A stretch of 49,686 nucleotides of DNA from a virus, in IMG/VR virus record IMGVR_UViG_3300027291_000152, positions 1-49,686 of that record. One strand, written 5' to 3'. Positions 144 through 40,655 of this stretch are shown in pieces. How positions within the stretch are numbered: the first letter of the stretch is position 1; each line of letters starts with the position of its first letter. The notes beneath the pieces are model-generated. The model searched no databases. It was given only the letters and a program-made list of their open reading frames with translations, and had not been told where the DNA came from. A program made the position numbers and the translations under genes.

Positions 144-152
144 GCTCTGGGC

Positions 153-180: not shown

Positions 181-196
181 CGGCCAACTTATTTGA

Positions 197-1036: not shown

Positions 1037-1173
1037 GGCGCATTCTCAAATCTGGCGACAAGCATCATGCGCAGCGCATCAGACAGGGTTAATCCCATAG
1101 CGGCCAAAACGACACTGGTCTCTTCTTTGATTTGCTCATCATTAAAGGCCGTATGCCCAATGACTGATCGCAA
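1027..1173 (-). pseudogene. Remnant of a RelB/DinJ-family antitoxin gene
   Basis: Reading the minus strand from 1173, residues 10-47 (FNDEQIKEE, then VLAAMGLTLSDALRMML) closely follow the N-terminal ribbon-helix-helix pattern of RelB/DinJ antitoxins: DEQIK, AVLAAMGL, SDA.R.ML. After about residue 49 the frame runs into the antisense of the cyclophilin gene, and the usual C-terminal toxin-binding part is missing. No toxin gene is next to it. I read it as a decayed antitoxin left by an earlier mobile element beside the integrase. The family call rests on pattern recognition only. Confidence 0.55.
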
Positions 1174-1227
1174 CCCCGTTTACACAGAACTCTCTGCACC
1201 CTTGCTGGCGCGATACCGAATACGACT

Positions 1228-2406: not shown

Positions 2407-2433
2407 AAATAATGCCTCATATTTACAGTCTAA

Positions 2434-2449
2434 GATCTGCATTCAGATC
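2434..2449 (-). promoter_or_regulatory. Inverted repeat upstream of the integrase
   Basis: GATCTG-CATT-CAGATC lies about 28 bases before the integrase start codon. Its position and symmetry fit an operator or transcription-start control site. No cognate regulator is identified. Confidence 0.3.
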
Positions 2450-2528
2450 AATCTGTGCGTCATGCCACTTTAAAAATCAAAAAGCGACCTCCCCCGCTTG
2501 TTCGTTATCTCGAAAAAACGGCGTTGCT

Positions 2529-2543
2529 GAGTCGTTACGACTC
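2529..2543. repeat. 15-base palindrome between integrase and RTX gene
   Basis: GAGTCGT-T-ACGACTC lies in the 176-base gap between the divergent integrase and RTX-like gene. It could be an operator or a recombination core; nothing else supports either role. Confidence 0.3.
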
Positions 2544-2582
2544 TTGTGAATTGAAATGGTGTTCTAAATTTTCATACGAGAA

Positions 2583-6731: not shown

Positions 6732-6781
6732 TGAATTTAACTGCTTAAAAGAGTGATTTGTTAAGGTTTTAAACCTTCCGA

Positions 6782-6812
6782 CCCCACCCCTCACAAGGGG
6801 GTGGGGTTTTTT
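6782..6812 (+). terminator. Rho-independent terminator after the RTX-like gene
   Basis: A perfect 9-bp stem (CCCCACCCC with GGGGTGGGG), a 7-base loop and six T residues form a textbook intrinsic terminator 50 bases after the stop codon. It separates the RTX-like gene from the glycan cluster. Confidence 0.93.
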
Positions 6813-6849
6813 CTAAGCGCAACCCTTTTGCCTTTAGACAAAACCCCAT

Positions 6850-7455
6850 ATGAAATCCTTTCTGCACGTCGGCTGTGGCCCCAAGCGCAAAGACCGAACG
6901 ACTAAGGGCTTGAACACGCCTGACTGGTCAGAAATCCGCCTCGACATCGATGCCTCAGTTCAACCCGATGTCATTGGCACCATGACCGACATGTCGGCCG
7001 TTGCCACAGCGTCTGTGGATGCTGTCTTTTCTTCTCACAACATCGAACACCTGTACCCGCACGAGGTTCCACTGGCTTTGTCTGAGTTCTTGCGCGTGCT
7101 CAAGCCCGATGGCTTCTTTGTGGTCACTTGCCCTGACCTGCAAAGCGTTTGCAAGCTGATTGCCGAAGACAAGCTCACCGAAGCGGCTTACACCAGCCCC
7201 GCTGGACCCATTGCTCCCATCGATATTTTGTATGGCCTGCGCTCATCCATGGCCCAAGGCAATCTGTACATGGCGCACCGCTGTGGCTTTACGCAAAAGG
7301 TGTTGACAGCAACCCTTCAAGCGGCTGGTTTCAAGTCGGTGGCCACCATGGCCCGCCCCCACCCCTACTTTGACCTTTGGGCGGTGGGCAGCAAGCAAGT
7401 ACTTCCGCAAGATCAAATGAAAGCACTGGCCGTTGCGCACATGACGCCGCTGTAA
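6850..7455 (+). CDS. Class I SAM-dependent methyltransferase
   Basis: This 201-residue protein has the Rossmann-fold layout of Methyltransf_11-type enzymes: motif I HVGCGPK at residues 6-12, an acidic strand (LDID) that would hold the SAM ribose, and a post-motif segment SHNIEHLYPHEV followed by LRVLKPDGFFVVTCPD. Such enzymes move a methyl group from SAM to small molecules or sugars. It is the first gene of a same-strand run of methyl- and glycosyltransferases with gaps of about 20-30 bases or overlaps. A role in modifying a surface glycan or lipid precursor is therefore likely but inferred from context. The substrate cannot be read from the sequence. Confidence 0.85.
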   Translation: MKSFLHVGCGPKRKDRTTKGLNTPDWSEIRLDIDASVQPDVIGTMTDMSAVATASVDAVFSSHNIEHLYPHEVPLALSEFLRVLKPDGFFVVTCPDLQSVCKLIAEDKLTEAAYTSPAGPIAPIDILYGLRSSMAQGNLYMAHRCGFTQKVLTATLQAAGFKSVATMARPHPYFDLWAVGSKQVLPQDQMKALAVAHMTPL

Positions 7456-7482
7456 CTTGCCGAAAGGCCACCCAAGAGCCCC

Positions 7483-8310
7483 ATGACCGCAGAAAGCATC
7501 AATTCGCAGGTTCACCAGCAACTGCAAAATATTCTTGTCCAGGCAACTCAGGGCAACGCGGCTGAGCAAGCGCAGTTGAACAACGCACTGCGTCTGCTGT
7601 CCAAGTGGCGCTCTGTACTGATTCAAAACACTCTGCTCCAACAGCAAGGCACCATCGTCATGCAAGGGCCTTTGCAGGGCTTGAACTTCTTGCCTCAATC
7701 GGCCGAGGGTTGTCACATCGCCAAGCTGCTGGGTTGTTACGAGCAGCCATTGCAACCTTTCATTGAAGCGGCCATAGCTGCTGGCTACCCCACCATCTTG
7801 AACATCGGTTGCGCAGAGGGTTACTACACCGTGGGCATGGCGCTTCGCATGCCAAACACCCGTGTGCTGGCCCATGACCTCAACCCCAAGGCGCAAGAAG
7901 TTTGTGCAGAGCTGGCTCACAAAAACCAAGTCTCTGACCGTGTTGCCGTGGGCAGCTTGTTTTCCCCGGCTGACTTTGCAGCTTATGAGGGCCAAAAGTT
8001 GCTCTTGATGTGCGACATCGAAGGCGCAGAGCGTGAGTTGCTTGATCCTGTCCTCGCTCCAGCGCTCAAGGGCATGGACATCATCGTCGAGAGCCACGAA
8101 TGCCTGATCACGGGCGTTACGCAGTTGCTCATTGACCGCTTCAAGGATTCCCACCAGATCACGCTGGTGCAAGACGACGGTCAACGTCAATTGGTCACCC
8201 CACCGGCATGGTTTCTGAACTTGGCTCACCTGGACCAGTTGCTGGCCACATGGGAGTGGCGATCAGGACCTACGCCTTGGCTTGTGATGAAGCCAAAGTC
8301 ACCGCGGTAA
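7483..8310 (+). CDS. FkbM-like SAM methyltransferase
   Basis: The 275-residue product has a helical N-terminal region (1-95) and a methyltransferase core with motif I ILNIGCAEG at 105-113, a strand LAHDLNP and CDIEGAERELL, the acidic-loop pattern typical of FkbM-family O-methyltransferases. It lies 27 bases after the previous methyltransferase and 19 bases before a glycosyltransferase, so all are probably co-transcribed. By family and context it would methylate a sugar or other surface-polymer precursor in the cytoplasm. The exact acceptor is unknown. Confidence 0.8.
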   Translation: MTAESINSQVHQQLQNILVQATQGNAAEQAQLNNALRLLSKWRSVLIQNTLLQQQGTIVMQGPLQGLNFLPQSAEGCHIAKLLGCYEQPLQPFIEAAIAAGYPTILNIGCAEGYYTVGMALRMPNTRVLAHDLNPKAQEVCAELAHKNQVSDRVAVGSLFSPADFAAYEGQKLLLMCDIEGAERELLDPVLAPALKGMDIIVESHECLITGVTQLLIDRFKDSHQITLVQDDGQRQLVTPPAWFLNLAHLDQLLATWEWRSGPTPWLVMKPKSPR

Positions 8311-8329
8311 GTGATTCACCGGTGACCCC

Positions 8330-9979
8330 ATGAGCGCTGCCATTTATTACCACCCGGAGGCCTACACCACCAGCGGCCCCAAGCTGATGGGGCGCAATGC
8401 GGCGGGTGAGTCCTTCCTTCGGGGCTTTGCCTCGTACAGCACCTCTTCTTCTTTCTGGGCACAGGTTCAAAAGCCCGAGCACGCTCGTCTCTTTGCGGCT
8501 GCGCTGGCTTCCTTTGGCCGCACAGAGCCTGTGCGCTCTGCCGATAAATCTTCTTTGGGTGCGCTAGCCCAAGCGGGAGTGGTCTATTACCCCGGCCCCG
8601 GCATCGGTGAGCATGCATTTCACCGCGCAGCCTTTGGCCATGGTGCTTGGAGCCTGTGCGGCATCACCCACACCACCTCGTCTGCCGGGGCCATGGATGC
8701 ACTGGCGAGTTTGATCACAGCCCCCGTTCAGCCTTGGGATGCACTCATCTGCACATCTACCGCTGTCAAGGACAACGTCACCCGCCTTTTGCAAGCTCAG
8801 GTGGACTACCTCAAAGATCGACTTGGCATCACCAAGATGGTCTTGCCCCAGTTGCCGGTGATTCCTTTGGGCATCCATACCGCTGACTTTGCTTTTTCTT
8901 CAGACCAAAAGTCCGCCGCGCGTGCCACTTTGGGCGTATCGCCGGACACACTGGTCGTTTTATTCATGGGGCGCTTATCGTTTCATGCCAAAGCCCATCC
9001 TCTGGCCATGTACCAAGCACTCGAAGCGGCTGCACAGGCTTCGGGCAAATCGGTGGTGCTGGTTGAATGCGGCTGGCATGCCAATGATTTCATTGCCAAA
9101 GCCTATGCCGATGCGGCTGCCTTGGCCTGCCCCTCTGTGCGGGTGGTGACGCTCGATGGTCGTGATGCGGCGGCCCGCCAGACCGCCTGGGCCGGTGCCG
9201 ATGTGTTTTGCTCCCTCTCGGACAACATCCAGGAGACCTTTGGCATCGTCCCCATCGAGGCCATGGCCGCTGGCTTGCCAGTGGTGGTCTCGGACTGGGA
9301 CGGCTACAAGGACACGGTGCGCGATGGGGTGGACGGGTTTCGCATTCCCACCCTGATGCCCCAAGCTGGCCTGGGTGGCGACTTGGCCTACCGCCATGCC
9401 CTGGAAGTGGACACCTACGACATGTACTGCGGCCACACCTGCTCGCTGGTGGCTGTGGACGTGCAGGCTGCTGCTGTGGCGTTTGAGAAACTCTTCAACA
9501 GCCCCGAACTGCGCCGCCAGATGGGCGAGGCTGGCAGGGCACGGGCACAGGCGGTCTATGACTGGAAGCCCATCATCGGCCAATACGAAGCCCTGTGGGC
9601 CAGCCTGTCTGAACTGCGCACGGCCCAGGCCAAAGACCTGAAGCCCTTGACGCACCCGTGGCCAGCGCGCATGGACCCCTTCCATGCCTTTGCCAGCTAC
9701 CCCACCCAAAGCCTGACACCCCAGACTGTGCTCGGCCTGGTGGATGCCGATCTGAACACGGCCGTTGGCCGGGCCCTGGCCTACCGCCAACTGGCCATGG
9801 TGGACTTTGCCAAGAACATATTGCCCACCGAAGCGGAGGTGCGCGCTGTGCTGGTTGCTGCCCAGTCGCCTGCTGCAGCCTCGGGTTTGCTGCAAGGCAT
9901 TGCACAAGCTCGTCAGCCCTTTGTGTTTCGCGCCCTGGCCTGGCTGGTCAAGTTGGGTGTGCTCAAGGTGGTGTCATGA
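8330..9979 (+). CDS. GT4-family glycosyltransferase
   Basis: This 549-residue enzyme is longer than most GT-B glycosyltransferases (350-420). The C-terminal nucleotide-sugar domain shows VLFMGRLSFHAK and the retaining GT4 E-x7-E pattern at Glu302 to Glu310 (QETFGIVPIE), followed by AMAAGLPVVVSDWDGYKD. About 110 residues after the core (from about 435) have no match I recognise and may be a partner-binding or accessory module. It should transfer an activated sugar to a growing surface glycan. Its stop overlaps the next start (ATGA at 9976), which indicates translational coupling to the second glycosyltransferase. Confidence 0.88.
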   Translation: MSAAIYYHPEAYTTSGPKLMGRNAAGESFLRGFASYSTSSSFWAQVQKPEHARLFAAALASFGRTEPVRSADKSSLGALAQAGVVYYPGPGIGEHAFHRAAFGHGAWSLCGITHTTSSAGAMDALASLITAPVQPWDALICTSTAVKDNVTRLLQAQVDYLKDRLGITKMVLPQLPVIPLGIHTADFAFSSDQKSAARATLGVSPDTLVVLFMGRLSFHAKAHPLAMYQALEAAAQASGKSVVLVECGWHANDFIAKAYADAAALACPSVRVVTLDGRDAAARQTAWAGADVFCSLSDNIQETFGIVPIEAMAAGLPVVVSDWDGYKDTVRDGVDGFRIPTLMPQAGLGGDLAYRHALEVDTYDMYCGHTCSLVAVDVQAAAVAFEKLFNSPELRRQMGEAGRARAQAVYDWKPIIGQYEALWASLSELRTAQAKDLKPLTHPWPARMDPFHAFASYPTQSLTPQTVLGLVDADLNTAVGRALAYRQLAMVDFAKNILPTEAEVRAVLVAAQSPAAASGLLQGIAQARQPFVFRALAWLVKLGVLKVVS

Positions 9980-11211
9980 ACATCCTGTTCATTCACCAGA
10001 ACTTCCCTGGGCAGTTCAAGTTTCTGGCCCCGGCGCTGGTCAGGCAAGGCCACACCGTGGTGGCCATGACCATGCAAAAGACCGATGCCCAGGACTGGCA
10101 GGGCGTGAAACTCGTGCCCTACAGCGCAAGCAGAGGCACCACCGCCAACATCCACCCCTGGGTGTCGGACTTTGAAACCAAGGCGATCCGGGGGGAGGCT
10201 TGCTTCAAAGCCGCATTGCAGATGAAGCAGCAGGGCTTTAGCCCCGATGTGATCATCGCCCACCACGGCTGGGGTGAGAGCCTGTTCTTGAAGGATGTCT
10301 GGCCCCAGGCCAAGCTGGCCATTTACTGCGAGTTCTTCTACCACCCCACGGGGGCCGATGTGGGGTTTGATCCGGAGTTCCCGGCCAAGGACCCGGGTGA
10401 CGCTTGCCGCCTGCGGCTGAAGAACCTGAACAACCTGCTGCACTTTGAGGTGGCCGATGCCGGAATGTCTCCGACGCACTGGCAGGCCAGCACGTTTCCG
10501 CAGCCGTTCAGGTCAAAGATCACGGTGGTGCATGACGGCATTGACACCCAGGCCGTGGCACCCAACCCCAATATCAGCCTCACCTTCAACGGCCACCTTA
10601 CCCTGACCAAGCACGACAAGGTCATCACCTTCGTCAACCGCAACCTCGAACCCTACCGGGGCTACCACGTGTTCATGAGGGCGCTGCCGGAGATCCTCAG
10701 GCGCAGACCGAATGCCCGGGTGCTGATCGTGGGCGCTGACGATGTGAGCTACGGCGCCCGACCAGAGCATGGCCAGAAGTGGAAGGACATTTTTGCTGCA
10801 GAGGTGCGCTCACAGATCAGTGACGCTGACTGGGCCAGGGTGCACTTCTTGGGCAATGTGGCTTACCAGCACTTCATCCCGCTGCTGCAACTGAGCACCG
10901 TGCATGTCTACCTGACCTACCCCTTTGTGCTCTCCTGGAGTCTGCTCGAAGCCATGAGCGCTGGTTGCGCCATCGTGGCCAGCGACACGCAGCCTCTGCA
11001 CGAGGCGATCAAGGACGGGGAAACCGGCAAACTGGTGAACTTCTTTGACCATGCCCGACTGGCCCACGAAGTGTGCGATTTGTTGGACCAACCGCAAGAG
11101 CGCCAAAGGCTGGGGGCCAACGCCCGCACCTTCGCGCAGCAGAACTACGACCTGCAGACCGTTTGCCTGCCCCGGCAGTTGGCGTGGGTCAATGATTTGA
11201 TCGGATCATGA
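9976..11211 (+). CDS. GT4-like glycosyltransferase
   Basis: The 411-residue product begins MNILFIHQNFPGQF, a typical GT-B first strand, and carries an FVNRNLEPYRG loop and the C-terminal segment HVYLTYPFVLSWSLLEAMSAG (about 309-329). The second Glu of the E-x7-E pair is present (Glu325), but the position eight residues before it is Phe317 rather than Glu. This variant seems to be a feature of its subfamily. An open frame extends upstream to 9658, but the ATG at 9976, overlapping the previous stop, is the natural start. It probably acts in sequence with the preceding glycosyltransferase on the same glycan. Confidence 0.88.
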   Translation: MNILFIHQNFPGQFKFLAPALVRQGHTVVAMTMQKTDAQDWQGVKLVPYSASRGTTANIHPWVSDFETKAIRGEACFKAALQMKQQGFSPDVIIAHHGWGESLFLKDVWPQAKLAIYCEFFYHPTGADVGFDPEFPAKDPGDACRLRLKNLNNLLHFEVADAGMSPTHWQASTFPQPFRSKITVVHDGIDTQAVAPNPNISLTFNGHLTLTKHDKVITFVNRNLEPYRGYHVFMRALPEILRRRPNARVLIVGADDVSYGARPEHGQKWKDIFAAEVRSQISDADWARVHFLGNVAYQHFIPLLQLSTVHVYLTYPFVLSWSLLEAMSAGCAIVASDTQPLHEAIKDGETGKLVNFFDHARLAHEVCDLLDQPQERQRLGANARTFAQQNYDLQTVCLPRQLAWVNDLIGS

Positions 11212-11315
11212 AGACAATCAAGAATCTGTTTCCCATCATGCTCTTGGTCGCCACACAAATGTGCTCCATCTTCGTGCTGGTCTACCTCTACCTCAACACC
11301 TTCAACCTGATTTGA
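11208..11315 (+). CDS. Small single-span membrane protein, 35 residues
   Basis: ATG at 11208 overlaps the stop of the upstream glycosyltransferase (ATGA). The 35-residue peptide has a short basic start (MKTIKN) and then an almost unbroken hydrophobic stretch (residues 7-33), so it is probably one transmembrane helix. The coupled start argues that it is translated. It could anchor or assist the glycosyltransferases. I recognise no family. Confidence 0.5.
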   Translation: MKTIKNLFPIMLLVATQMCSIFVLVYLYLNTFNLI

Positions 11316-11321
11316 GGTCAC

Positions 11322-11498
11322 ATGACCCCTGAACTTGAAGCCGACTTCTGGCGAGAACTGGCCGAAATCGAAGCCGAATCCATCGGCTGGCAGCCCTTGG
11401 AGCCGGGCGCCTACCTGCATGTGAGCGATGAAGAAGCAACCGAGGTGCTGGTGGTGGGCGTACCGCAGGCGGGGGCGGCGGTGTTGCTGGTATGCTGA
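11322..11498 (+). CDS. Hypothetical protein, 58 residues
   Basis: This short frame starts at ATG 11322, 6 bases after the preceding small gene. The product is acidic at the N-terminus (MTPELEADFWRELAEIEAES) and hydrophobic at the C-terminus (GAAVLLVC). It follows the spacing of the upstream run, which supports expression. No function is assignable. Confidence 0.4.
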   Translation: MTPELEADFWRELAEIEAESIGWQPLEPGAYLHVSDEEATEVLVVGVPQAGAAVLLVC

Positions 11499-11502
11499 CA
11501 CG

Positions 11503-24198: not shown

Positions 24199-24462
24199 AT
24201 GCCAACCAGTGTTGCTCTCAGCCCCCATTTTGAGACCTTCATCCGCCAGCAGGTCGACTCGGGTCGCTTCAACAACGTCAGCGAGGTCGTCCGCGCCGGA
24301 CTGCGTCTGCTTGAAGAGCGCGAAGCCGAACAGGCCACCAAGCTGCAGGCCTTGCGTGAGGCGATTGCGGTGGGCCTGGCCAGCGGTCCTGGGATTCCGG
24401 AAGAGGAAGTCTTTGATCGCCTGGAGGCGAAATATCGCGCTATGGCTGAGAAAGCGGTCTGA
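24199..24462 (+). CDS. parD: ParD-family antitoxin
   Basis: The protein has 87 residues. An N-terminal ribbon-helix-helix domain (MPTSVALSPHFETFIRQQV ... FNNVSEVVRAGLRLLEERE) binds DNA and forms dimers. The C-terminal helix (ALREAIAVGLASGPG) would wrap the toxin. AGAAGGAG lies 6-7 bases before ATG. The stop overlaps the toxin start (TGATG), the standard coupled order. It should neutralise the toxin and repress the palindrome upstream. Confidence 0.9.
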   Translation: MPTSVALSPHFETFIRQQVDSGRFNNVSEVVRAGLRLLEEREAEQATKLQALREAIAVGLASGPGIPEEEVFDRLEAKYRAMAEKAV

Positions 24463-24779
24463 TGCGGTTGGAGTTCCAGCCGCAGGCCGAACGCGATCTC
24501 GAAGGCATCGGTGACTATATCGCTCAGGATAATCCGCGACGGGCCATCTCTTTCCTGCATGAACTGCGCGCGCAGTGCCGCAAGATCCTGGTGGCGCCCC
24601 AAGCTTACCGGCCAAGGCCAGAACTTGGCGAAGGCATCCGCTCCTGCGCTTACGGCAACTACGAGATCTTTTTCACGGAAGATGGTCGGTTGCTGCGGAT
24701 CATCCGTGTGTTGCACGGTGCCATGGACATCGAAGCGCAGTTCGCCGAAAAAAATTCTGCTCCCGATGACAAAACCTAG
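24462..24779 (+). CDS. parE: ParE-family toxin
   Basis: The 105-residue RelE/ParE-fold protein shows the family signature: LEFQPQAERDLEGIGDYIAQDNPRRAISFL, RPELGEGIRSCAYGNYEIFFTEDG and IIRVLHGAMD. ParE toxins poison DNA gyrase and stabilise the element that carries them. It is coupled to parD and transcribed from the parD promoter. With HigBA at 40 kb this gives the prophage two intact toxin-antitoxin pairs. Confidence 0.9.
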   Translation: MRLEFQPQAERDLEGIGDYIAQDNPRRAISFLHELRAQCRKILVAPQAYRPRPELGEGIRSCAYGNYEIFFTEDGRLLRIIRVLHGAMDIEAQFAEKNSAPDDKT

Positions 24780-26090: not shown

Positions 26091-26424
26091 TGCACCGGTT
26101 GCCAACCGCGAGTTGCAGCCGCCTCTGGAAACCGGCCGCATTGCCGCGCCTGACTACCAGACCAGCCGCGCCATCCGCGAGGCCTATGCCGCGCGCCTGG
26201 CCAAACTCGAATTCGAAGAACGCACGGGCAAGCTGCTCAACGCCGACGAGGTGAAGGTCAAGCACTTCAACCTCGCGCGGTTGCTGCGTGACCGCATCCA
26301 GCAAATCCCTCGCAAGGTCGCCCCGCAGATCGTGGCGGCCGTGGTCGCACAGCCCGACCAGCGCGTGGTGGAAGACCTGCTGATGGAGGCGATCCGCGAA
26401 GCTCTGGAGGAACTCTCCCGATGA
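25861..26424 (+). CDS. Terminase small subunit, Nu1-like
   Basis: The 187-residue protein has an N-terminal helix-turn-helix (IRAYAQHRGVSHTAVAKAIKAGRI), a Pro/Thr-rich linker, and a C-terminal helical region (YAARLAKLEFEERTGKLLNADEVKVKHFNLARLLRDRIQ) typical of gpNu1 relatives. It should bind the packaging site and recruit the large subunit. GGAGGAA precedes ATG 25861; an extension to 25834 is unlikely. Its stop overlaps the methyltransferase start. The large subunit lies 5.6 kb away, separated by methyltransferases and the minus-strand island. Confidence 0.82.
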   Translation: MGLSIRAYAQHRGVSHTAVAKAIKAGRISVEPDGKIDSAKADAQWARNTLPSQNLNTGALKPVPKVATPPVSTPVSTAPVANRELQPPLETGRIAAPDYQTSRAIREAYAARLAKLEFEERTGKLLNADEVKVKHFNLARLLRDRIQQIPRKVAPQIVAAVVAQPDQRVVEDLLMEAIREALEELSR

Positions 26425-27845
26425 CCGTCACTCCCGCCATGGCCAGCCGCATCGAGATGTGGCCACTGGATCGGCTCAAGCCCTACCAGAGAAATGCCCG
26501 TACCCACTCCGACGCCCAGGTGGCGCAGATCGCCGCCAGCATCGTCGAGTTTGGGTTTACCGCGCCGCTCTTGGTGTCGGAAGACGGCGGCATTCTCGCT
26601 GGTCACGGTCGCTTGGCCGCCGCCAGAAAACTCGATCTGGACGCCGTGCCCGTGGTGGTGCTCGACCACCTGACGCCCACCCAGCGCCGCGCCTACATCC
26701 TGGCCGACAACCAACTGGCGTTGCAGGCCGGCTGGGATCAGGAACTGCTTGCTATCGAGTTGGCCGACCTGTCGGCGGCGGGCTTCGATCTGGCATTGAC
26801 CGGATTCAGCGATGAGGAACTGGCCGACCTGCTTGGCGATATCGAAGAGGCCGTGCGTGCCGATGAGGATTTGCCCATTGGCGAACCCGTCGACGAGGAC
26901 ATTCCAGAGGCACCCGTCACCCCGGTCAGCCAACCGGGCGACATCTGGCAACTGGGTGCGCATCGCCTGATCTGCGGCGACTCCACCGATCCGGCTGTGG
27001 TCGCCGCGCTGATGGCGGGCGATCGGGCGAGCCTGTGCTTCACCAGCCCACCCTACGGTCAGCAGCGCAACTACACCCAGGGCATCGCCGACTGGGATGC
27101 GCTGATGCGCGGTGTCTTTGCCAACCTACCGATGGCCGGCGACGGTCAGGTGTTGGTGAATCTGGGACTGATCCACCGCGACAACGAGTTCATCCCGTAT
27201 TGGGATGGCTGGATCAGTTGGATGCGAACGCAAGGCTGGCGACGCTTTGGCTGGTACGTCTGGGACCAGGGGCCGGGGATGCCTGGCGACTGGGCAGGCC
27301 GTTTTGCACCCAGCTTCGAGTTCGTCTTCCACTTCAACCGCGAAAGCCGCAAACCCAACAAGATCGTGCCGTGTAAGCATGCAGGTCAGGACTCGCACCT
27401 GCGCGCCGACGGATCATCGACCGCGATGCGCGGCAAGGATGGTGAAGTCGGTGGCTGGACCCATGCCGGGCAGCCCACCCAGGAGTACCGCATCCCGGAC
27501 AGCGTAATTCGCGTGATGCGCCACAAGGGCAAGATCGGTCGGGACATTGATCATCCGGCGGTGTTTCCGGTGGCGCTGCCAGAGCACATCTTGCTCGCGT
27601 ACTCGGACCCGGGTGACGTCGTCTTCGAGCCCTTCGGTGGCTCCGGCACCACCATCCTGGCCGCGCAGAAGACGAATCGCGTGGCCCGCGCCATCGAACT
27701 GGCCCCGTCCTACACCGACGTGGCGGTCAAGCGCTTCCAACAAAACCACCCCGGCATCCCGGTGACCTTGCTGGCCACCGGACAGACCTTTGCCGAGGTC
27801 GAATCAGAACGACTGGAGAACACCGATGCAAGCCTGGCTCGCTGA
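26421..27845 (+). CDS. ParB-domain DNA methyltransferase 1 (TSPPY type)
   Basis: This 474-residue fusion has a ParB/Srx-like nuclease fold domain at about 10-130 (LKPYQRNARTHSDAQ, GHGRLAAARKL) and a methyltransferase at about 175-450. The catalytic motif SPPY is at 209-212 and motif I (FEPFGGSGTT) at 402-411, so catalysis comes before SAM binding (beta-type order). SPPY is more usual in N4-cytosine enzymes, DPPY in N6-adenine enzymes. No restriction gene is nearby, so it probably modifies phage DNA to evade host restriction or influences packaging. It overlaps the next gene by 20 bases. Confidence 0.88.
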   Translation: MTVTPAMASRIEMWPLDRLKPYQRNARTHSDAQVAQIAASIVEFGFTAPLLVSEDGGILAGHGRLAAARKLDLDAVPVVVLDHLTPTQRRAYILADNQLALQAGWDQELLAIELADLSAAGFDLALTGFSDEELADLLGDIEEAVRADEDLPIGEPVDEDIPEAPVTPVSQPGDIWQLGAHRLICGDSTDPAVVAALMAGDRASLCFTSPPYGQQRNYTQGIADWDALMRGVFANLPMAGDGQVLVNLGLIHRDNEFIPYWDGWISWMRTQGWRRFGWYVWDQGPGMPGDWAGRFAPSFEFVFHFNRESRKPNKIVPCKHAGQDSHLRADGSSTAMRGKDGEVGGWTHAGQPTQEYRIPDSVIRVMRHKGKIGRDIDHPAVFPVALPEHILLAYSDPGDVVFEPFGGSGTTILAAQKTNRVARAIELAPSYTDVAVKRFQQNHPGIPVTLLATGQTFAEVESERLENTDASLAR

Positions 27846-29106
27846 CAAACTGGAGCACTGGCCCATCGAGCGCCTGTTGCCTTACATCCGAAATGCCCGC
27901 ACCCACTCCGAGGCCCAAATCGCCCAGATCGCGGCGAGCATCGCCGAATTCGGCTTTACCGCGCCAATCCTGGCCGGGTCGGACGGCGTGATTGTGGCCG
28001 GTCACGGGCGTTTGGCGGCGGCGCGCAAGCTGGGGCTGGCTACCGTGCCGGTGGTGGTGCTGGAGCACCTGACCCCGACCCAGCGTCGGGCCCTGGTGAT
28101 TGCCGACAACAAGATCGCGGAGAACGCCGGGTGGGACGAGGAACTGTTGCGCCTGGAGCTGGCTGAGCTGCAGGAGGCCGACTTCGATCTCGCGCTCACT
28201 GGCTTCGATGCCGATGAGTTGCTGGAGATCATGGCCGGCGAGGAAACCACAACCGAGGGCAATACCGACGAGGACGCCGCGCCCGAGGTGCCGGTCACCC
28301 CAGTGTCCAAGCCTGGTGATGTCTGGATCATGGGCCAGCACCGGCTGCTGTGCGGGGACAGCACCAATGCTGCGAGCTACACCCTGCTGATGGCTGGCGA
28401 GAAAGCCCACATGGTCGTGACCGATCCACCCTATGGCGTGAATTACGCCAACAGCGCCAAGGATAAGCTGCGCGGCACGAACCGCCCGATCTTGAACGAC
28501 AACCTGGGCGAGGACTTCGAACCCTTCCTCAAGGCGGCGCTGACACCGATGATCGCGCACTGTCAGGGGGCGATCTACATCGCCATGTCCTCCAGCGAAC
28601 TGGACACGCTGCAGTCCGCCTTCCGGGCGGCCGGCGGCAAGTGGTCGACCTTCATCATCTGGGCCAAGAACACCTTCACGCTGGGGCGCTCGGACTACCA
28701 GCGCCAATACGAGCCCATCCTGTACGGCTGGCCCGAGGGCGCCAATCGCCACTGGTGCGGCGACCGCGACCAGGGGGACGTGTGGCACTTCAACAAGCCG
28801 CGTGTGAACGATCTGCACCCGACGATGAAGCCGGTGGAACTGGTCGAGCGCGCCATCCGCAATTCCAGCCGCCCGGGCGATTTGGTGCTCGACCCCTTCG
28901 GTGGCTCCGGTACGACGCTGATTGCCGCCGAGAAGTCCGGTCGCCAGGCAAGGCTGATTGAGCTCGATCCGAAGTACGTGGACACTATCGTTCGCAGGTG
29001 GCAGGACTACGCCGGCGCGCAGGCGATACGGGAATCGGATGGAATCCGGTTTGATGATGTGGTCGGCACTGTGGATGCCGCCGACGAAGTCGAGGAGGCG
29101 CCGTGA
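27826..29106 (+). CDS. ParB-domain DNA methyltransferase 2 (DPPY type)
   Basis: The 426-residue protein repeats the architecture of its upstream neighbour: ParB domain (about 6-125; LLPYIRNARTHSEAQ, GHGRLAAARKL) and a beta-type methyltransferase with DPPY at 200-203 and FGGSGTT at 358-364. The ParB halves of the two proteins are closely similar while the methyltransferase halves have diverged, which indicates a duplication with a different base or target specificity. DPPY suggests N6-adenine methylation. ATG 27826 has GGAG nine bases upstream; the open frame to 27790 is rejected. Confidence 0.88.
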   Translation: MQAWLADKLEHWPIERLLPYIRNARTHSEAQIAQIAASIAEFGFTAPILAGSDGVIVAGHGRLAAARKLGLATVPVVVLEHLTPTQRRALVIADNKIAENAGWDEELLRLELAELQEADFDLALTGFDADELLEIMAGEETTTEGNTDEDAAPEVPVTPVSKPGDVWIMGQHRLLCGDSTNAASYTLLMAGEKAHMVVTDPPYGVNYANSAKDKLRGTNRPILNDNLGEDFEPFLKAALTPMIAHCQGAIYIAMSSSELDTLQSAFRAAGGKWSTFIIWAKNTFTLGRSDYQRQYEPILYGWPEGANRHWCGDRDQGDVWHFNKPRVNDLHPTMKPVELVERAIRNSSRPGDLVLDPFGGSGTTLIAAEKSGRQARLIELDPKYVDTIVRRWQDYAGAQAIRESDGIRFDDVVGTVDAADEVEEAP

Positions 29107-29339
29107 AGCAGTCGCGCTGGATGTCGCTGGTGGAAGCCGTGACCAATGTGCTGGTCGGCTATGGGGTGGCGGTGGCCACCCAATGGGTGGTGTTTCCACT
29201 CTTCGGTCTGCACGCCACGCTGCAGGAGAACTTGGTGATCGGACTCGTTTTCACGGCCGTTTCGCTGGTCCGCAGCTACGTGCTGCGCCGGGCCTTCGAG
29301 GCGCAGCGCATGCGTCAGTTTTCCGCAAACTCGGGATAA
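29103..29339 (+). CDS. Small membrane protein, DUF7220-like, 78 residues
   Basis: GTG at 29103 overlaps the methyltransferase stop (GTGA). The protein has two probable membrane helices (VLVGYGVAVATQWVVFPLFGL and NLVIGLVFTAVSLVRSYVL) and a basic tail. I recall this family from phage packaging regions next to ParB-methyltransferases. Its function is unknown; membrane location suggests a role in exclusion or host interaction. It converges with and overlaps the minus-strand island by 25 bases. Confidence 0.7.
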   Translation: MKQSRWMSLVEAVTNVLVGYGVAVATQWVVFPLFGLHATLQENLVIGLVFTAVSLVRSYVLRRAFEAQRMRQFSANSG

Positions 29340-29521
29340 AGGTCGCCGCTGCTGATGTCGGCGCGGTACGTGACGTTGCGAAACTCGCCCGGGGCGTCGG
29401 CCAGGATCACGCCACCGACCGACTGGATGGCGACGCCGTGCTTGCGGGTGAGTGCCGTCAGTTCGGCGATGAACTGGTCGTAGTTGGCTTCGAGTTTTGG
29501 GGTGGTGGAGATGGCGGCCAC
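29315..29521 (-). CDS. Hypothetical accessory protein, 68 residues (island gene 1)
   Basis: This minus-strand gene is 10 bases after the 122-residue gene and probably shares its transcript from element A. The protein reads YDQFIAELTALTRKHGVAIQSVGGVILADAPGEFRN ... SGDLYPEF, a pattern I recall from small phage proteins without function. Its 3' end overlaps the 3' end of the DUF7220-like gene on the other strand. Confidence 0.65.
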   Translation of the reverse strand: MAAISTTPKLEANYDQFIAELTALTRKHGVAIQSVGGVILADAPGEFRNVTYRADISSGDLYPEFAEN

Positions 29522-29531
29522 GTTGCGCTCC

Positions 29532-29900
29532 TCACGCCGCCAGGGACTCTTCGATGATCTCGCAGTGGATCACGAAGCCCGTCAGGTAAGGCAGGCCCTT
29601 GGGGATGCCGTACTGCTTGCTGGTGCTGCGGCCAATCGTCCACCCCATCCAACGCTGGGTGGCGGCGTTGATCGCTTCCTGCAGGGCTTGTCCCTGGTAC
29701 AGCCCGTTTTGCACATCGTCGGCAAAGTGGCGACCGTGGCGGCTGTCGAGGAAGGTGCGGACCGACTCCAGCGGCTGGCAGGTGGCGTCCGAGATGGCGG
29801 TCATGGCCAGCTGCCAGGCAACTTCGGCGTGCTCGTTCATCGTGCCGTAAAAGCCCCAATCGGTGATGATCGGGGCGGGGATCTGGGTGGTGGTGTTCAT
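29532..29900 (-). CDS. Hypothetical accessory protein, 122 residues (island gene 2)
   Basis: The start codon at 29900 lies 40 bases after repeated element A, with AGGAG 7 bases before ATG. The protein contains WGFYGTMNEHAEVAWQLAMTAI, FADDVQNGLYQGQALQEAI and YLTGFVIHCEIIEESLAA. I recognise no family. It is one of four island genes placed at a fixed or near-fixed distance from the same regulatory motif. Confidence 0.7.
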   Translation of the reverse strand: MNTTTQIPAPIITDWGFYGTMNEHAEVAWQLAMTAISDATCQPLESVRTFLDSRHGRHFADDVQNGLYQGQALQEAINAATQRWMGWTIGRSTSKQYGIPKGLPYLTGFVIHCEIIEESLAA

Positions 29901-29940
29901 CTCTGGCTCCTGGTGGTTGATCGTTGCGACACCCGTAGTA

Positions 29941-29979
29941 ACGCGCTTCGGGCGATCAAAGCCAAGTGGTTAATCGATC
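29941..29979 (-). promoter_or_regulatory. Repeated island element, copy A
   Basis: On the minus strand this reads GATC-N9-CTTGGCTT-N11-AGCGCGT, then TACTAC. There are 40 bases between its end and the start codon of the 122-residue gene. The upstream flank is AT-rich with a run of seven A. TTGGCT could serve as a weak -35. Confidence 0.75.
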
Positions 29980-29989
29980 ATTTTTTTAA

Positions 29990-30463
29990 TCAATTTCCAG
30001 CCAGTTCGTCGAGGATGTCCTGGGCCTTCGCATCACCTGCCAGCGCCCGGCGCAGGGTGTGGATGGCCTGCTCGCGCGACACCTCTGGGCGACGGTTGTC
30101 GATCAGCCAGCCGATTGCCTCGGCCTGGTTGCTGGCCAGTGCTGGCGTTTCCTCGCCGATGCCCACATACCGTCCGTAGGCGCTGCCCGAGGGATCGACA
30201 AACACGGTTGTGCGTCCAGGCGCGCTGACGGCCACCACGCGCCGGCGCCCATCCGCGTGACCGCCGAGTCCAGCCAGCCAGTCCCGATCCTCCAGCAGTG
30301 TGCTGGCGAAGGCGTCGTACTCCGCCTCGGTCAGTTCTTTGCGCCACGCGATCTCGATGGGCTCGAAGGGGGCGCTGGGGTCGGTGTTGTGCAGCACTTC
30401 GTCCAGGCTGTAGGGCTTGCGTGCAAAGCGGGCACGGATCGGTGTGTGGTGGGTGGTGGTCAT
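29990..30463 (-). CDS. Hypothetical accessory protein, 157 residues (island gene 3)
   Basis: The ATG at 30463 follows element B by 40 bases and has AAGGA upstream. The protein includes RKELTEAEYDAFASTLLEDRDWL, a strand-rich middle (VVAVSAPGRTTVFVDPSGSAYGRYVGIG) and a helical C-terminus (SREQAIHTLRRALAGDAKAQDILDEL). A frame open to 30616 would run through the element and gene 4 and is rejected. No family is recognised; possibly a host-interacting protein like other phage accessory genes. Confidence 0.72.
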   Translation of the reverse strand: MTTTHHTPIRARFARKPYSLDEVLHNTDPSAPFEPIEIAWRKELTEAEYDAFASTLLEDRDWLAGLGGHADGRRRVVAVSAPGRTTVFVDPSGSAYGRYVGIGEETPALASNQAEAIGWLIDNRRPEVSREQAIHTLRRALAGDAKAQDILDELAGN

Positions 30464-30503
30464 GGTGGGGTCCTTTCGTTGGCGGTGGGTGACAGCTGCA
30501 TTC

Positions 30504-30542
30504 ACGCGCTGGTCGCCTGGAAAGCCAAGCTCAATCTGCATC
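30504..30542 (-). promoter_or_regulatory. Repeated island element, copy B
   Basis: The minus strand reads GATG-N9-CTTGGCTT-N11-AGCGCGT, then GAATGC. There are 40 bases to the ATG of island gene 3. The GAT end overlaps the stop region of island gene 4, so the element is packed tightly between the genes. Confidence 0.75.
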
Positions 30543-30737
30543 GCGGTGGGCATCGAGTGCATCAAGGGCTTCAATCGCCAGCACCAGATCGGCGATGCGG
30601 TCGGCCTCGAAACCAAACCCCCGGTGGCGCAGCAGGTGTTCGATGCTCGGATGCTTCATTCGGGCGATCTCCCGACAGGCATCGAGCAAGGCCTGCAGAG
30701 GTGCTGCCGGGATCGGGGCATCGCGCTGTGCGTTCAC
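30531..30737 (-). CDS. Hypothetical accessory protein, 68 residues (island gene 4)
   Basis: The GTG start at 30737 overlaps the stop of the DUF3489 gene (GTGA), which shows translational coupling. The protein is helical and acidic: APLQALLDACREIARMKHPSIEHLLRHRGFGFEADRIADLVLAIEAL. A longer frame on the same strand runs through the DUF3489 gene and is a shadow. Its coupling suggests it works with the DUF3489 protein, perhaps as a partner or modulator. Confidence 0.65.
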   Translation of the reverse strand: MNAQRDAPIPAAPLQALLDACREIARMKHPSIEHLLRHRGFGFEADRIADLVLAIEALDALDAHRDAD

Positions 30738-31330
30738 GCGGTGGCCTCCTCGGCAATCCGGTAGAGGCGCTGTCCTGCACCTGGGGTGCCGGCAGGGCCT
30801 TCGATCTTTTCGGAGACGATGGCCAGTCCCAGTTTCTTCTTGACCGTCCCGGCAAAGAATCCGCGAGTCGTATGGGCTTGCCACGAAGTGGCCTCGCAGA
30901 TCTGCGCGATGGTGGCGCCCTCGGGGCGTTTCAACATCTCGATCACCAGCGCCTGCTTGCTGTGCTCGCGACCGCGCTTGGGGGCGGCATCGGGGTGGTC
31001 CTGTTGCCAGTTGGCCTCGGCGGCGGCGACCGCTGCTTCCAGCTCCGGGTCGTCGGCCAGGGGCGGCGTGGCAACGCTGGTGGCCACCGTCGGCGGCAGC
31101 ACGTCTTCGGGTTGGGCATCGCCCTTGATGATGGCGATGGCGGCGCGTGTGATGCGCCACTGGCCGTCAGCCTGCTCGATCAACCCCCGCTGCGCGAGGC
31201 TGGCGATCATTTTGAGCTTGGCGCCGCCCTTGAGGTCGAGCAGCGGCTCGATCAGACCACCGGCGTCGCAATGCGCACGGGTGATGAGGTCCAGTTGGCG
31301 TTCGGTGATCGGGGTGGTTTGTGCGGACAT
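30734..31330 (-). CDS. DUF3489 protein with two winged-helix-like domains (island gene 5)
   Basis: The 198-residue product has an N-terminal winged-helix-like part (about 8-68; LDLITRAHCDAGGLIEPLLD ... AKLKMIASLAQRGLIEQADGQWRIT) and a C-terminal DUF3489 domain (about 120-194; KQALVIEMLKRPEGATIAQICEATSWQAHTTRGFF, VKKKLGL). DUF3489 is also winged-helix-like and found in mobile elements beside recombinases and DUF2924. It is the best local candidate for a regulator of the four repeated elements. It has AGGAG before ATG and follows gene 6 after 29 bases. Confidence 0.8.
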   Translation of the reverse strand: MSAQTTPITERQLDLITRAHCDAGGLIEPLLDLKGGAKLKMIASLAQRGLIEQADGQWRITRAAIAIIKGDAQPEDVLPPTVATSVATPPLADDPELEAAVAAAEANWQQDHPDAAPKRGREHSKQALVIEMLKRPEGATIAQICEATSWQAHTTRGFFAGTVKKKLGLAIVSEKIEGPAGTPGAGQRLYRIAEEATA

Positions 31331-31359
31331 GGTCGTGCTCCTTGTGGGTGATGTGAGGG

Positions 31360-31611
31360 TCAGGCGGTTTGCTGGTTGCTCGGTTGATCAGCCGTTTTGG
31401 GGGCGGCGCTTTGTCCTGCGGCCAGGCCTGCTTGGTAGGCCGCCACCAGGGCGCTTTTGACGCCCCAGACGCTGACGTCGTGGAAATCCAGGCTGTCGCT
31501 GTTGCGGGTTTCCAGTGTCTCGATGAAGAGGTGGTCCAGGGCGATCCGGGCGAGCAGCTGTTCGAGTTGCTGGGCGGCTCGGGTGGCGGTCTTGTTGGCG
31601 GTTTTGCGCAT
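31360..31611 (-). CDS. DUF6900-like protein, 83 residues (island gene 6)
   Basis: The ATG at 31611 lies 40 bases after element C, with GAAGGAG upstream. The protein shows LARIALDHLFIETLETRNSDSLDFHDVSVWGVKSALVAAYQAGL, a strongly conserved pattern I recall as DUF6900, common in mobile elements and phages beside DUF3489. It is the first gene of a likely three-gene operon (genes 6, 5, 4). Its function is unknown. Confidence 0.78.
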   Translation of the reverse strand: MRKTANKTATRAAQQLEQLLARIALDHLFIETLETRNSDSLDFHDVSVWGVKSALVAAYQAGLAAGQSAAPKTADQPSNQQTA

Positions 31612-31651
31612 CGTGGTTCTCCTTCTGGGGTGCGTTGCTGTGCTTGTAGTA

Positions 31652-31690
31652 ACGCGCTGTTCAAGAGGTAAGCCAAGCGCCGGTTTGATC
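31652..31690 (-). promoter_or_regulatory. Repeated island element, copy C
   Basis: The minus strand reads GATC-N9-CTTGGCTT-N11-AGCGCGT, then TACTAC as in copy A. There are 40 bases to the ATG of the DUF6900-like gene. It should drive genes 6, 5 and 4. Confidence 0.75.
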
Positions 31691-31716
31691 TTTCTGCACC
31701 TGGTTGGCCGATTTGC

Positions 31717-31935
31717 TCAGGCGACGATCCGGCGCTTGGCCAGATCAATCTCGGCAGGCAGCCACAGCGTGGCGATTTCTTCCTCGAGGGCTTGGCGCCG
31801 ACGCTCGGCGATCTCCTGCAGGGCCTCGATCTGCGCGAGCAAGGTGAGGAGATCGTCGCGCTGACGAAGGATGGGAGTGCCCACTTCGGGCAGCTGCTCG
31901 ATCCAGTTCAGGTGGGTGGTGTTGGCGGTGTTCAT
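31717..31935 (-). CDS. Small coiled-coil protein, 72 residues (island gene 7)
   Basis: The ATG at 31935 follows element D by 35 bases and has GGAG upstream. The protein is mostly one long helix (LRQRDDLLTLLAQIEALQEIAERRRQALEEEIATLWL), probably a coiled coil. No family is recognised. Upstream extension to 32061 would cross element D and the divergent terminase start and is rejected. Confidence 0.68.
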   Translation of the reverse strand: MNTANTTHLNWIEQLPEVGTPILRQRDDLLTLLAQIEALQEIAERRRQALEEEIATLWLPAEIDLAKRRIVA

Positions 31936-31970
31936 GGCGTGCTCCGTGGGTGTTGATGACATCCGTATGA

Positions 31971-32009
31971 ACGCGCTGTTGCCGATTGAAGCCAAGCGTT
32001 CGGTCCATC
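31971..32009 (-). promoter_or_regulatory. Repeated island element, copy D
   Basis: The minus strand reads GATG-N9-CTTGGCTT-N11-AGCGCGT, then TCATAC. There are 35 bases to the ATG of the coiled-coil gene, against 40 in the other three. It lies 22 bases before the divergent large-terminase start and could affect both directions. Confidence 0.72.
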
Positions 32010-32030
32010 TATTTCGCATCGGAGTGGCTT

Positions 32031-33899
32031 GTGTTCGACACTGCTGAATCGGCGGCGGCATTGGTCGTGCAGTCCGCCTGGAAAAGAGGGCTCGCGCCTG
32101 ACCCCGTCCTCACCGTCGATGACTGGGCCAACCGCCATCGGATGCTCTCCTCGGTCGCATCCGCCGAGCCGGGACGCTGGTCGACCAGCCGCACGCCGTA
32201 CCTGAAAGCCGTGATGGAAACGCTGTCGGCCACCTCGCGCGTCGAGCGTGTGGTGCTGATGGCCGGGGCGCAAATTGGCAAGACCGAAGCCGGATTGAAC
32301 TGGCTGGGCTACGTCATCCACCACGCCCCCGGGCCGATGTTGCTGGTGCAGCCCACGGTGGAAGGCGCCAAGCGTGTCTCCAAGCAGCGCGTGGACGCGC
32401 TGATCGAAGCCAGCCCCGAGCTTGCCGGTCGGGTGAAGGACCCACGAAGCCGAGACTCCGGCAACACCCAGCTGATGAAGGAGTTTCCCGGTGGCGTGCT
32501 GATCATGACCGGCGCCAACTCGGCGGTCGGCCTGCGCTCGATGCCGGTGCGTTACCTGTTTCTCGATGAGGTCGACGGCTATCCAGGGGATGCCGATGGC
32601 GAAGGTGATCCAGTGGCGCTGGCTGTGCAGCGCGCCGCCACCTTCGTCAATCGCAAGGTGTATCTGTGCTCAACCCCGACCTTGAAGGGTTTCTCGCGCA
32701 TCGAGGCGGCCTACCTGGAGTCGGACCAACGGGTGTTCGAAGTCCCTTGCGATCACTGTGGGGCGCACAGCCAGATCCTCTGGCGTGACATCAAATGGCC
32801 GACCGGCAAGATGGCGGAGGCTTCCTGGCACTGCCCACATTGCGACGGCATCCATCCGGAGTACCGCAAACCGGCACTGCTGGCCAATGGCCGATGGACA
32901 TCACAAGCTGAGGGTGACGGCAAGACGGTGGGTTTTCATCTGTCGAGCCTGTATTCGCCGTGGCTCACCTGGGGCGAGATCGCCCAGGAGCACCACGCTG
33001 CCAAGGACGATCCCGTCAGATTGAAGGTCTGGGTGAACACCAAGCTGGCCGAGACCTGGGAAGACCGTGAGGGCGAGACCTTGGACGCTGAAGGCCTGAT
33101 GGAACGTCGGGAAGCCTACGGGCCTGCGATCCCTGCCGAGGTGGCATTGCTCACCTGCGGCATCGACGTGCAGGATGACCGGCTGGAACTGGAAGTGGTC
33201 GGTTGGGGCCGGGACGAAGAGTCCTGGTCCATCGATTACAAGGTGTTGTGGGGTGATCCCTCGGCGCCGGACACCTGGGCGCAACTTGATGCCTATCTGG
33301 GCAACCGTTTCGAGCACGAGACCCTGGCCAATGGCCTGACGATTGAAGCCGCGTGTCTCGATACCGGTGGTCACCACACCCTGGCTGCCTATGCCTTCTG
33401 CAAGGGCCGGGAGCGCAAACGCATCTGGGCGATCAAGGGGAGCTCGGGCAAGCGTCCGATCTGGCCCAAGCGTCCGAGCAAGGCCAACAAGGGCAAGGTC
33501 AATCTGTTCACCGTTGGCGTGGATGCCGCCAAGGAAGCGATCTACGCCCGCCTCAAGAAGTCCGAGGTTGGGGCTGGTGCGATGCATTTCCCGCTGGACA
33601 GGGATGCGCAGTATTTCGAGCAACTCACTGCCGAGCGCATTCGCACCCGGTATGTGAAGGGCTTCCCTCTGCGCTTCTGGTGGAAGCCCGATGGCCGCAG
33701 AAACGAAGCGCTGGACTGCCGGGTGTACGCCTACGCCGCGCTGCACGGCCTGCTGTCGATGGGACTGAACCTGAACAAGCGGGTCGAGGCGTTACCGCCG
33801 ATTCCAGTGAGTCGCCAGAGCAAGAGCACACCTGTCTCGGCCCCGATGACCGCCAGCCCACGCCGTCGGCGCATGGCGATTTCTTCCAACTACCTCTGA
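32031..33899 (+). CDS. Terminase large subunit, GpA family
   Basis: The 622-residue packaging motor has an ATPase domain with Walker A GAQIGKT (79-85) and Walker B FLDE (Asp179-Glu180), a zinc-binding pair CDHCG and CPHC (about 243-270), and a C-terminal nuclease part. It belongs to the lambda GpA family, which cuts concatemers at cos and pumps DNA into proheads. I choose GTG 32031 (GGAG six bases upstream). The ATG at 31986 lies inside island element D. It partners the small subunit at 25.9 kb. Confidence 0.92.
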   Translation: MFDTAESAAALVVQSAWKRGLAPDPVLTVDDWANRHRMLSSVASAEPGRWSTSRTPYLKAVMETLSATSRVERVVLMAGAQIGKTEAGLNWLGYVIHHAPGPMLLVQPTVEGAKRVSKQRVDALIEASPELAGRVKDPRSRDSGNTQLMKEFPGGVLIMTGANSAVGLRSMPVRYLFLDEVDGYPGDADGEGDPVALAVQRAATFVNRKVYLCSTPTLKGFSRIEAAYLESDQRVFEVPCDHCGAHSQILWRDIKWPTGKMAEASWHCPHCDGIHPEYRKPALLANGRWTSQAEGDGKTVGFHLSSLYSPWLTWGEIAQEHHAAKDDPVRLKVWVNTKLAETWEDREGETLDAEGLMERREAYGPAIPAEVALLTCGIDVQDDRLELEVVGWGRDEESWSIDYKVLWGDPSAPDTWAQLDAYLGNRFEHETLANGLTIEAACLDTGGHHTLAAYAFCKGRERKRIWAIKGSSGKRPIWPKRPSKANKGKVNLFTVGVDAAKEAIYARLKKSEVGAGAMHFPLDRDAQYFEQLTAERIRTRYVKGFPLRFWWKPDGRRNEALDCRVYAYAALHGLLSMGLNLNKRVEALPPIPVSRQSKSTPVSAPMTASPRRRRMAISSNYL

Positions 33900-39957: not shown

Positions 39958-40371
39958 TTACACAAAGGTCGCGGCCGAAACCCCGAAACGCTCGCTCAGC
40001 GCCCGCACTTGCCGAATGTTGAGCTCGCGCTTGCCGGTCAGGATTTCAGAGACAACGCCCTGGCTGCCGATCTCGGCGAGGTCGCTTTGCTTGAGGTCGT
40101 GTTGCTCCATCAGGAACTTCAAGGCTTGCACGCCGGTGGTCTCGGGCAGCGGGTGATGCGCTGCCTCGTAGTCCTCGATCAGATCGCCCACGATGTCGAC
40201 CAAACCCATGGCAGGATGGGCTTCATTGCCCTGAGTTTCATCCAGCAGGGCTTCGAGCATTTCGGTCATCCGCGCGTAGTGGGCCTCGTCCCGGATAGGA
40301 GCGATATCTGTAGCAGCACGGAACTGTTCCCAGACCGGGAGCAGGTGCTTCACGTCGATGGCTGCATTCAT
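39958..40371 (-). CDS. higA: HigA-family antitoxin
   Basis: The 137-residue protein has an acidic N-terminal region and an XRE helix-turn-helix near the C-terminus (LKFLMEQHDLKQSDLAEIGSQGVVSEILTGKRELNIRQVRALSERFGV), the HigA layout with DNA-binding domain last. It neutralises the toxin and represses its operon. The ATG at 40371 overlaps the toxin stop (ATGA); a GTG at 40380 is less likely. Confidence 0.88.
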   Translation of the reverse strand: MNAAIDVKHLLPVWEQFRAATDIAPIRDEAHYARMTEMLEALLDETQGNEAHPAMGLVDIVGDLIEDYEAAHHPLPETTGVQALKFLMEQHDLKQSDLAEIGSQGVVSEILTGKRELNIRQVRALSERFGVSAATFV

Positions 40372-40655
40372 GATTTCCACGCTCCTTTGTCGTAATCCCG
40401 GTGGGTCAGCACCGCCTTGATGTACACGATTTGCTTCTCGAACCGGATGTAAGCGATCAGACGGTACTTGTTGCCGCCGATATCGAACACCACCAACTCG
40501 CCGACTTTGTCCACCGCATTGAAGGCGGCTTTGAGCTCGGCCCAGTTGGCAAACCGGTTCTTTTCAATCACCCGCCGCCATCCCTGCAAGGGGGCTTCGG
40601 CCTGAGGATGATCGGCAGCGAAGGCCCGCAGGGCACTGTTGCTGATGATTTTCAT
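40368..40655 (-). CDS. higB: HigB-family toxin
   Basis: The 95-residue protein has the HigB signature: MKIISNSALRAFAADHPQAEAPLQGWRRVIEK, FANWAELKAAF, VFDIGGNKYRLIAYIRFEKQIVYIKAVLTHRDYDKGAW. HigB cleaves mRNA on the ribosome. It precedes and is coupled to higA on the minus strand, inverted relative to the baseplate genes on each side. An extension to 40757 is rejected because it crosses the promoter. Confidence 0.9.
   Translation of the reverse strand: MKIISNSALRAFAADHPQAEAPLQGWRRVIEKNRFANWAELKAAFNAVDKVGELVVFDIGGNKYRLIAYIRFEKQIVYIKAVLTHRDYDKGAWKS

Follow-up and report, generated by a model that had tools for sequence, protein, structure and literature searches.

A two-box element heading accessory-gene units and integration operons in AcaML1-like temperate phages: a probable promoter region that doubles as a joint of gene shuffling

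The lambda CII regulon consists of separated promoters that lie opposite the lytic genes, one of them driving the integrase, and that are activated by one phage protein; the CII site is TTGC-N6-TTGC, and no accessory-gene array belongs to the regulon. The PeSLs, reportedly described by Arbiol in 2010 and Comeau in 2014, are said to be composite promoter-terminator motifs of T4-like phages, in which a promoter and a stem-loop between small accessory genes form the joints of modular shuffling. The phages that carry them are reportedly lytic and T4-like, with host sigma-70 early promoters. In IncN plasmids, a repeated promoter-bearing element, CUP, heads several small operons in a row; it is bound by ArdK, which is encoded in the regulon, and the row is rearranged when copies recombine (PMC5371602, PMC6289460). 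ArdK is a TrfB-like regulator (PMC6289460). In cluster K mycobacteriophages, the lineage-specific motif SAS (GGGATAGGAGCCC) is repeated directly ahead of the starts of many genes; an inverted repeat (ESAS) precedes about half of the copies, and the binding partner is unknown (PMC3203893).

The element described here is close in logic to CUP, the PeSLs and SAS/ESAS, and is a member of none of them by sequence or setting. As with CUP, several operons each begin with one conserved element. The array encodes the DUF3489 protein, predicted to be winged-helix-like, which is a candidate for the regulator. CUP, in contrast, lies in the plasmid leading region and answers to the TrfB-like ArdK, whereas the present element belongs to prophages with DUF3489 as candidate; this distinction is drawn from the setting and not from a direct comparison of sequences. 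The modular shuffling of small genes is shared with the PeSLs, but here the core is temperate and AcaML1-like, the sequence is not of the sigma-70 type and an integration operon is part of the same regulon. A phage-lineage-specific motif ahead of many genes recalls SAS/ESAS, although our boxes are placed 33-46 bases upstream, each unit has a separate Shine-Dalgarno sequence, and GGGATAGGAGCCC does not describe them. The likeness to the CII regulon lies in separated promoters opposite the lytic strand, one of them for integration; the difference is that the element does not contain TTGC-N6-TTGC, that an accessory array is present and that no CII homologue was identified. In the literature covered, mostly outside subscription papers, no description of the boxes or of DUF3489 function was found, as the initial annotation had anticipated.

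In the window (the whole 49,686-nt stretch of DNA analysed), the pattern GATS-N9-CTTGGCTT-N11-AGCGCGT has exactly 4 matches, each on the minus strand (Table 1), a count far above chance expectation. No fifth match was found there with up to 3 mismatches, dinucleotide shuffles giving an expectation of 0.01. The positions of the four copies, their distances to the start codons and the lack of further copies in the window are all as the initial annotation had described them. Four units follow the copies: the kleA-like gene; the DUF6900 gene, DUF3489 gene and small ORF; the 157-aa gene; and the phrog_8020 gene with the last 68-aa gene. Defence-gene models gave no match to the array genes and Pfam mostly none, and no closing copy of the element ends the array in the window. 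Elsewhere (L022:3215-4201), the product of one cassette with an element in front is a DUF932 protein.

Table 1. Copies of the element and array genes in the window
Feature	Position	Strand	Details
Element copy 1	31971..31996	-	CTTGGCTT 31989-31996, N11, AGCGCGT 31971-31977; ATG 31935, 35 bases on; full pattern 31971-32009
GATG block near copy 1	32006-32009		Outside the general core
Element copy 2	31652..31677	-	CTTGGCTT 31670-31677, N11, AGCGCGT 31652-31658; ATG 31611, 40 bases on; full pattern 31652-31690
Element copy 3	30504..30529	-	CTTGGCTT 30522-30529, N11, AGCGCGT 30504-30510; ATG 30463, 40 bases on; full pattern 30504-30542
Element copy 4	29941..29966	-	CTTGGCTT 29959-29966, N11, AGCGCGT 29941-29947; ATG 29900, 40 bases on; full pattern 29941-29979
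kleA_kleC-like gene	31717..31935	-	Copy 1 in front; 72 aa; Pfam PF17383, E 1e-8
DUF6900 gene	31360..31611	-	Copy 2 in front; 83 aa; PF21841, E 5e-26
DUF3489 gene	30734..31330	-	198 aa; without own element; 29 bases after the DUF6900 gene, same unit
Small ORF	30531..30737	-	GTG start, 68 aa; overlaps the DUF3489 stop codon; own stop abuts copy 3
157-aa gene	29990..30463	-	Copy 3 in front; weak phrog_21303 match
phrog_8020 gene	29532..29900	-	Copy 4 in front; 122 aa; E 4e-46
Last array gene	29315..29521	-	68 aa; without element; 10 bases after the phrog_8020 gene, same unit

The prophage occupies the window from about 11.9 kb rightwards, where it seems to start with an S24-type repressor, and contains terminase, portal and capsid genes. 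Positions 1-11500 have lower G+C and are host-like; they encode a long protein rich in repeats and a tyrosine integrase (1228-2406, minus). Two overlapping small genes (24199-24779), ParD/ParE toxin-antitoxin-like by eye, form an insert in the early region with a relative in another genome (G014), and an HTH_3 antitoxin-like gene with a small HigB-like gene (39958-40571, minus) lies within the tail genes on the opposite strand, without an element. Two adjacent genes for ParB-domain DNA methylases (26421-29106) lie beside the array, as they do in each of the element-bearing phages examined.

The element had been described as tripartite, which did not hold. When bacterial genomes were scanned with the two boxes only, GATS not being required (at least 119 stretches), GATS was present in 3 and GAT in 9 of 93 non-redundant sites among the matches listed, so that the first block is not general; we rejected the three-block motif and regard GATS as a feature of a subset. 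In copy 3 this block (30539-30542) belongs to the final codons of the ORF upstream (GAT GCA GAT TGA). The general form consists of two boxes, (G)CTTGGCTT(C)-spacer-(AAC)AGCGCGTTCAT, with 11 bp between CTTGGCTT and AGCGCGT. An exact scan of IMG/VR gave 65 stretches, which with the window hold 103 sites, and a weight matrix over the fetched loci gave 385 sites. The spacing was exactly 11 bp in 383 of 385 exact-box pairs (range searched 4-18), in loci that had been fetched by the 11-bp pattern, yet are long enough to show other spacings. Past AGCGCGT, weaker conservation goes on (TNATNC..GTC..CAAC) as far as a TGTCGCAAC-like stretch.

An open frame with an ATG start and a Shine-Dalgarno sequence begins 30-46 bases past AGCGCGT (mode 40) at 85.7% of the 385 sites, against 2.8% of random positions, and the proposal that matches in other prophages would precede small genes by 35-41 bases is strongly supported. 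In 94 arrays, the median gap to the previous gene is 94 nt for genes with the element and 27 nt for genes without it, 94 of 130 of the latter being within 40 nt of the previous gene or overlapping it. This difference indicates that each apparent transcription unit starts with an element. A recent duplication of one segment was rejected, since the downstream genes belong to unrelated families and the same boxes recur about 15-20 kb away. The initial annotation had read the differing spacers as conservation of the blocks alone; these spacers are partly mosaic through recombination and so are not a simple case of conservation point by point.

The element marks AcaML1-like temperate phages of Beta- and Gammaproteobacteria, Acidithiobacillus and Nitrospira. 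In most records, 3-7 copies head an array of small genes, one of them for DUF3489, oriented opposite to the lytic genes, and one further copy, usually at the distance just given, heads an operon with DUF2924 and serine recombinase genes. The element-bearing phages have in common a core of replication, ParB-methylase, terminase, portal and capsid genes. The window conforms to this picture, with an AcaML1-like core and an array opposite the lytic genes that contains both DUF3489 and phrog_8020. The sole annotated phage relative of its DUF3489 protein is in Acidithiobacillus caldus phage AcaML1 (88% identity), which has four exact copies, three in the array and one 33 bases before gp4 (DUF2924), the head of the serine-recombinase operon. 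Behind an exact element in the same phage (L189:8661-9000, the AcaML1 22248 region) there is a DUF6900-like gene, apparently unannotated, and the annotations of gp5 and gp30 overlap elements, their annotated starts looking wrong.

DUF3489 and DUF2924 loci were also searched by protein, which avoids conditioning on the motif. Elements with no more than 2 mismatches were found in 74 of 77 DUF3489 loci, with 213 copies on the DUF3489 strand and 4 on the opposite one; shuffled loci gave 1. Just upstream of DUF2924, both boxes are exact in 61 of 79 loci and have at most 1 mismatch in 15 in 72, while none of the shuffled upstream regions came closer than 3 mismatches. Exactly one DUF3489 gene is present in all 24 viral records chosen for the element, and the gene is present in all 19 records chosen for DUF2924 and size. 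In one viral record of 92 kb (G048, locus L329) the DUF3489 gene, the array and the recombinase-type element all occur twice, as though a pair of such prophages stood in tandem. The 21 whole bacterial genomes contain 1-10 copies of the pattern each and 0 matches to the reversed-pattern control, mostly as an array beside DUF3489 and a single copy elsewhere, which is usually in the same prophage at about 15-20 kb. The array with DUF3489 is opposite to primase and terminase in 15 of the 15 records in which all three could be placed; in 11 records, the recombinase operon points the same way as the array 9 times and the other way twice. With a shared signal ahead of most array units and of the integration genes, these look like one co-regulated set. 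Of the reading originally proposed, a dedicated, oriented signal at the starts of accessory-gene units is supported; that reading was incomplete in missing the integration operon and the recombination joint.

In some lineages box 2 reads AGAGCGT, AGCGTGT or GAAGCGT, usually genome-wide, with some mixtures. In a table compiled by hand, in which one entry (G005) was counted without a DUF2924 check, an A-type box 2 at the recombinase operon goes with an A-type array in 4 of 5 records and a C-type box with a C-type array in 25 of 25 (Fisher p 2e-4, 30 records, kinship ignored). This agreement points to a reader that acts in trans and varies from lineage to lineage, although differences between hosts would produce the same pattern.

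Upstream of the boxes, AAGCCAAG copies often form a hairpin with box 1. Of 322 sites, 27 have a perfect 9-nt left arm AAGCCAAGC, pairing with GCTTGGCTT, where 0.2 would be expected, and 36 have one with a single mismatch, against an expectation of 3; the arm lies mainly at a distance of 4, 8 or 20 from box 1. In addition, 56 of 318 sites have stems of 10 pairs or more, against 3.4 expected. The hairpin is enriched overall but, unlike the stem-loop of the PeSLs, present at only a minority of copies; it is poor or absent in the window, so it is optional. It suggests an RNA structure that closes the preceding transcript.

The left flanks of the element (ends of upstream genes) and its right flanks (downstream genes) assort independently of each other, 35 left-flank clusters having at least 2 right partners and 45 right-flank clusters at least 2 left partners. 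The boxes are therefore also the joints of cassette exchange. Among 99 pairs with the same left and different right flanks, identity is lost after CTTGGCTT in 48, at AGCGCGT in 10 and beyond it in 31, with 10 unclear; among 101 pairs with the same right and different left flanks, the break is at AGCGCGT in 31, at CTTGGCTT in 22 and further left in 24, with 24 unclear. Such pairs overlap and are not independent events. The gene orders 6-1-3-0 (window), 6-1-3-4-0, 1-3-4-0, 6-1-4-0 and 10-6-1-18-4-0 show that single units are gained and lost on a fixed scaffold.

We suggest that the element is probably the promoter region of each unit of the regulon, read by a dedicated factor, and that it doubles as a shuffling joint. 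The fixed 11-bp spacing around a variable spacer, the single orientation and the near-constant distance to the gene point to a promoter signal at the level of DNA. Since a sigma-70 scan is empty at the boxes (0 matches in 29000-32200), it is the geometry that carries the term promoter. If TTGGCT is taken as the -35, what stands 17 bp away is GTTCAT, GTTACT or GTGAAT; the element lacks a TTGACA and TATAAT-like pair 16-18 bp apart; from this we infer the dedicated factor. In the proposed arrangement, CTTGGCTT would occupy the -35 position and AGCGCGTTCAT would cover the -10 region, transcription would start about 10-15 bases past AGCGCGT, and a leader of about 25 nt would contain the Shine-Dalgarno sequence. 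The factor would turn on the small-gene array and the distant DUF2924-serine-recombinase operon together, in a programme that may be lysogeny-related or otherwise separately timed, as transcription against the replication and structural genes suggests. The preceding transcript would often be closed by the hairpin, with box 1 as its right arm. Standing at the start of every unit, the same boxes also act as short homology joints for the gain, loss and exchange of unit-sized cassettes. Sigma-54, sigma-32 and lambda CII patterns did not fit when their consensus sequences were compared by eye, and a repressor operator or stoperator is disfavoured by the asymmetry of the element and its strong strand bias.

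The best candidate for such a factor inside the regulon is the strongly conserved DUF3489 protein, a putative regulator. Its predicted model, of moderate quality (pTM 0.38), has two winged-helix-like domains that match MarR-like winged helices with E of about 0.01-0.1, while searches by sequence against solved structures gave chance-level matches only. Being encoded inside the array, DUF3489 may co-occur with the element by hitch-hiking, and in three genomes with an element-led recombinase operon it was not found, which counts against it as the sole reader. That DUF3489 represents a new class of phage activator or sigma-like factor, acting at a non-sigma-70 promoter and uniting integration and the shuffling accessory array in a lysogeny regulon throughout a large phage lineage, is possible but doubtful. 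The AcaML1 recombinase operon (L190:1-3200) codes for an additional one or two small proteins of HTH-like type (gp1, gp2), whose weak Sigma70_r3 or SopB-HTH-like matches make them alternative regulator candidates.

A reader supplied by the host alone, with host RNA polymerase and a host factor acting on a sequence that descent and recombination among its copies preserve, would explain why the element is kept before recombinase operons in genomes without DUF3489. Conversely, the window and one further record (G016) have the array and, in the sequence covered, no recombinase operon; among the genes examined, no phage gene occurs in both settings, and this speaks for a host factor unless some of these are remnants. 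The hosts belong to several classes, for which a common factor is conceivable, and the CTTGACTT variants shift towards the sigma-70 -35 TTGACA. Nevertheless, no TATAAT-like hexamer follows at 16-18 bp, clade-specific variants agree between sites far apart in the prophage, and box identity seems stricter than ordinary host promoters would show, so that we consider this explanation unlikely.

An element acting in the leader RNA, through control of translation, antitermination or processing, with the promoter elsewhere, would account for box 1 as the right arm of a hairpin, in which single changes keep G-U pairing in 17 of 27 cases against 17 of 61 in shuffles, and for conservation that runs to about the start of the leader. 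It is quite improbable given that most copies, those of the window included, have no hairpin, that the spacing of the boxes stays fixed although the distance from them to the ATG has a spread of over 10 nt, and that no Rfam match was found at E up to 1. Finally, the boxes could be sites for the phage serine recombinase in an integron-like cassette array, since units are swapped at the element and the recombinase operon itself bears a copy. Such site-specific recombination was rejected, as the breaks are scattered and a fixed crossover point is lacking; the window array, moreover, has neither closing copy nor recombinase, and this reading is very improbable. Scattered break points fit better with general recombination at short homology, or with selection that preserves the boxes once exchange has occurred at random, than with a site-specific enzyme.

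With the promoter region and shuffling joint as the preferred reading, the two boxes and their strict spacing offer a sequence handle for the accessory genes and integration operons of widespread, little-studied temperate phages. This handle reveals unannotated small genes, such as the AcaML1 gene after the element at 22248, and through the element the function of DUF3489 becomes testable. The element would be a temperate-phage case in which a regulatory signal is also the joint of gene exchange, which bears on how accessory genes are kept expressible in phages that swap them.
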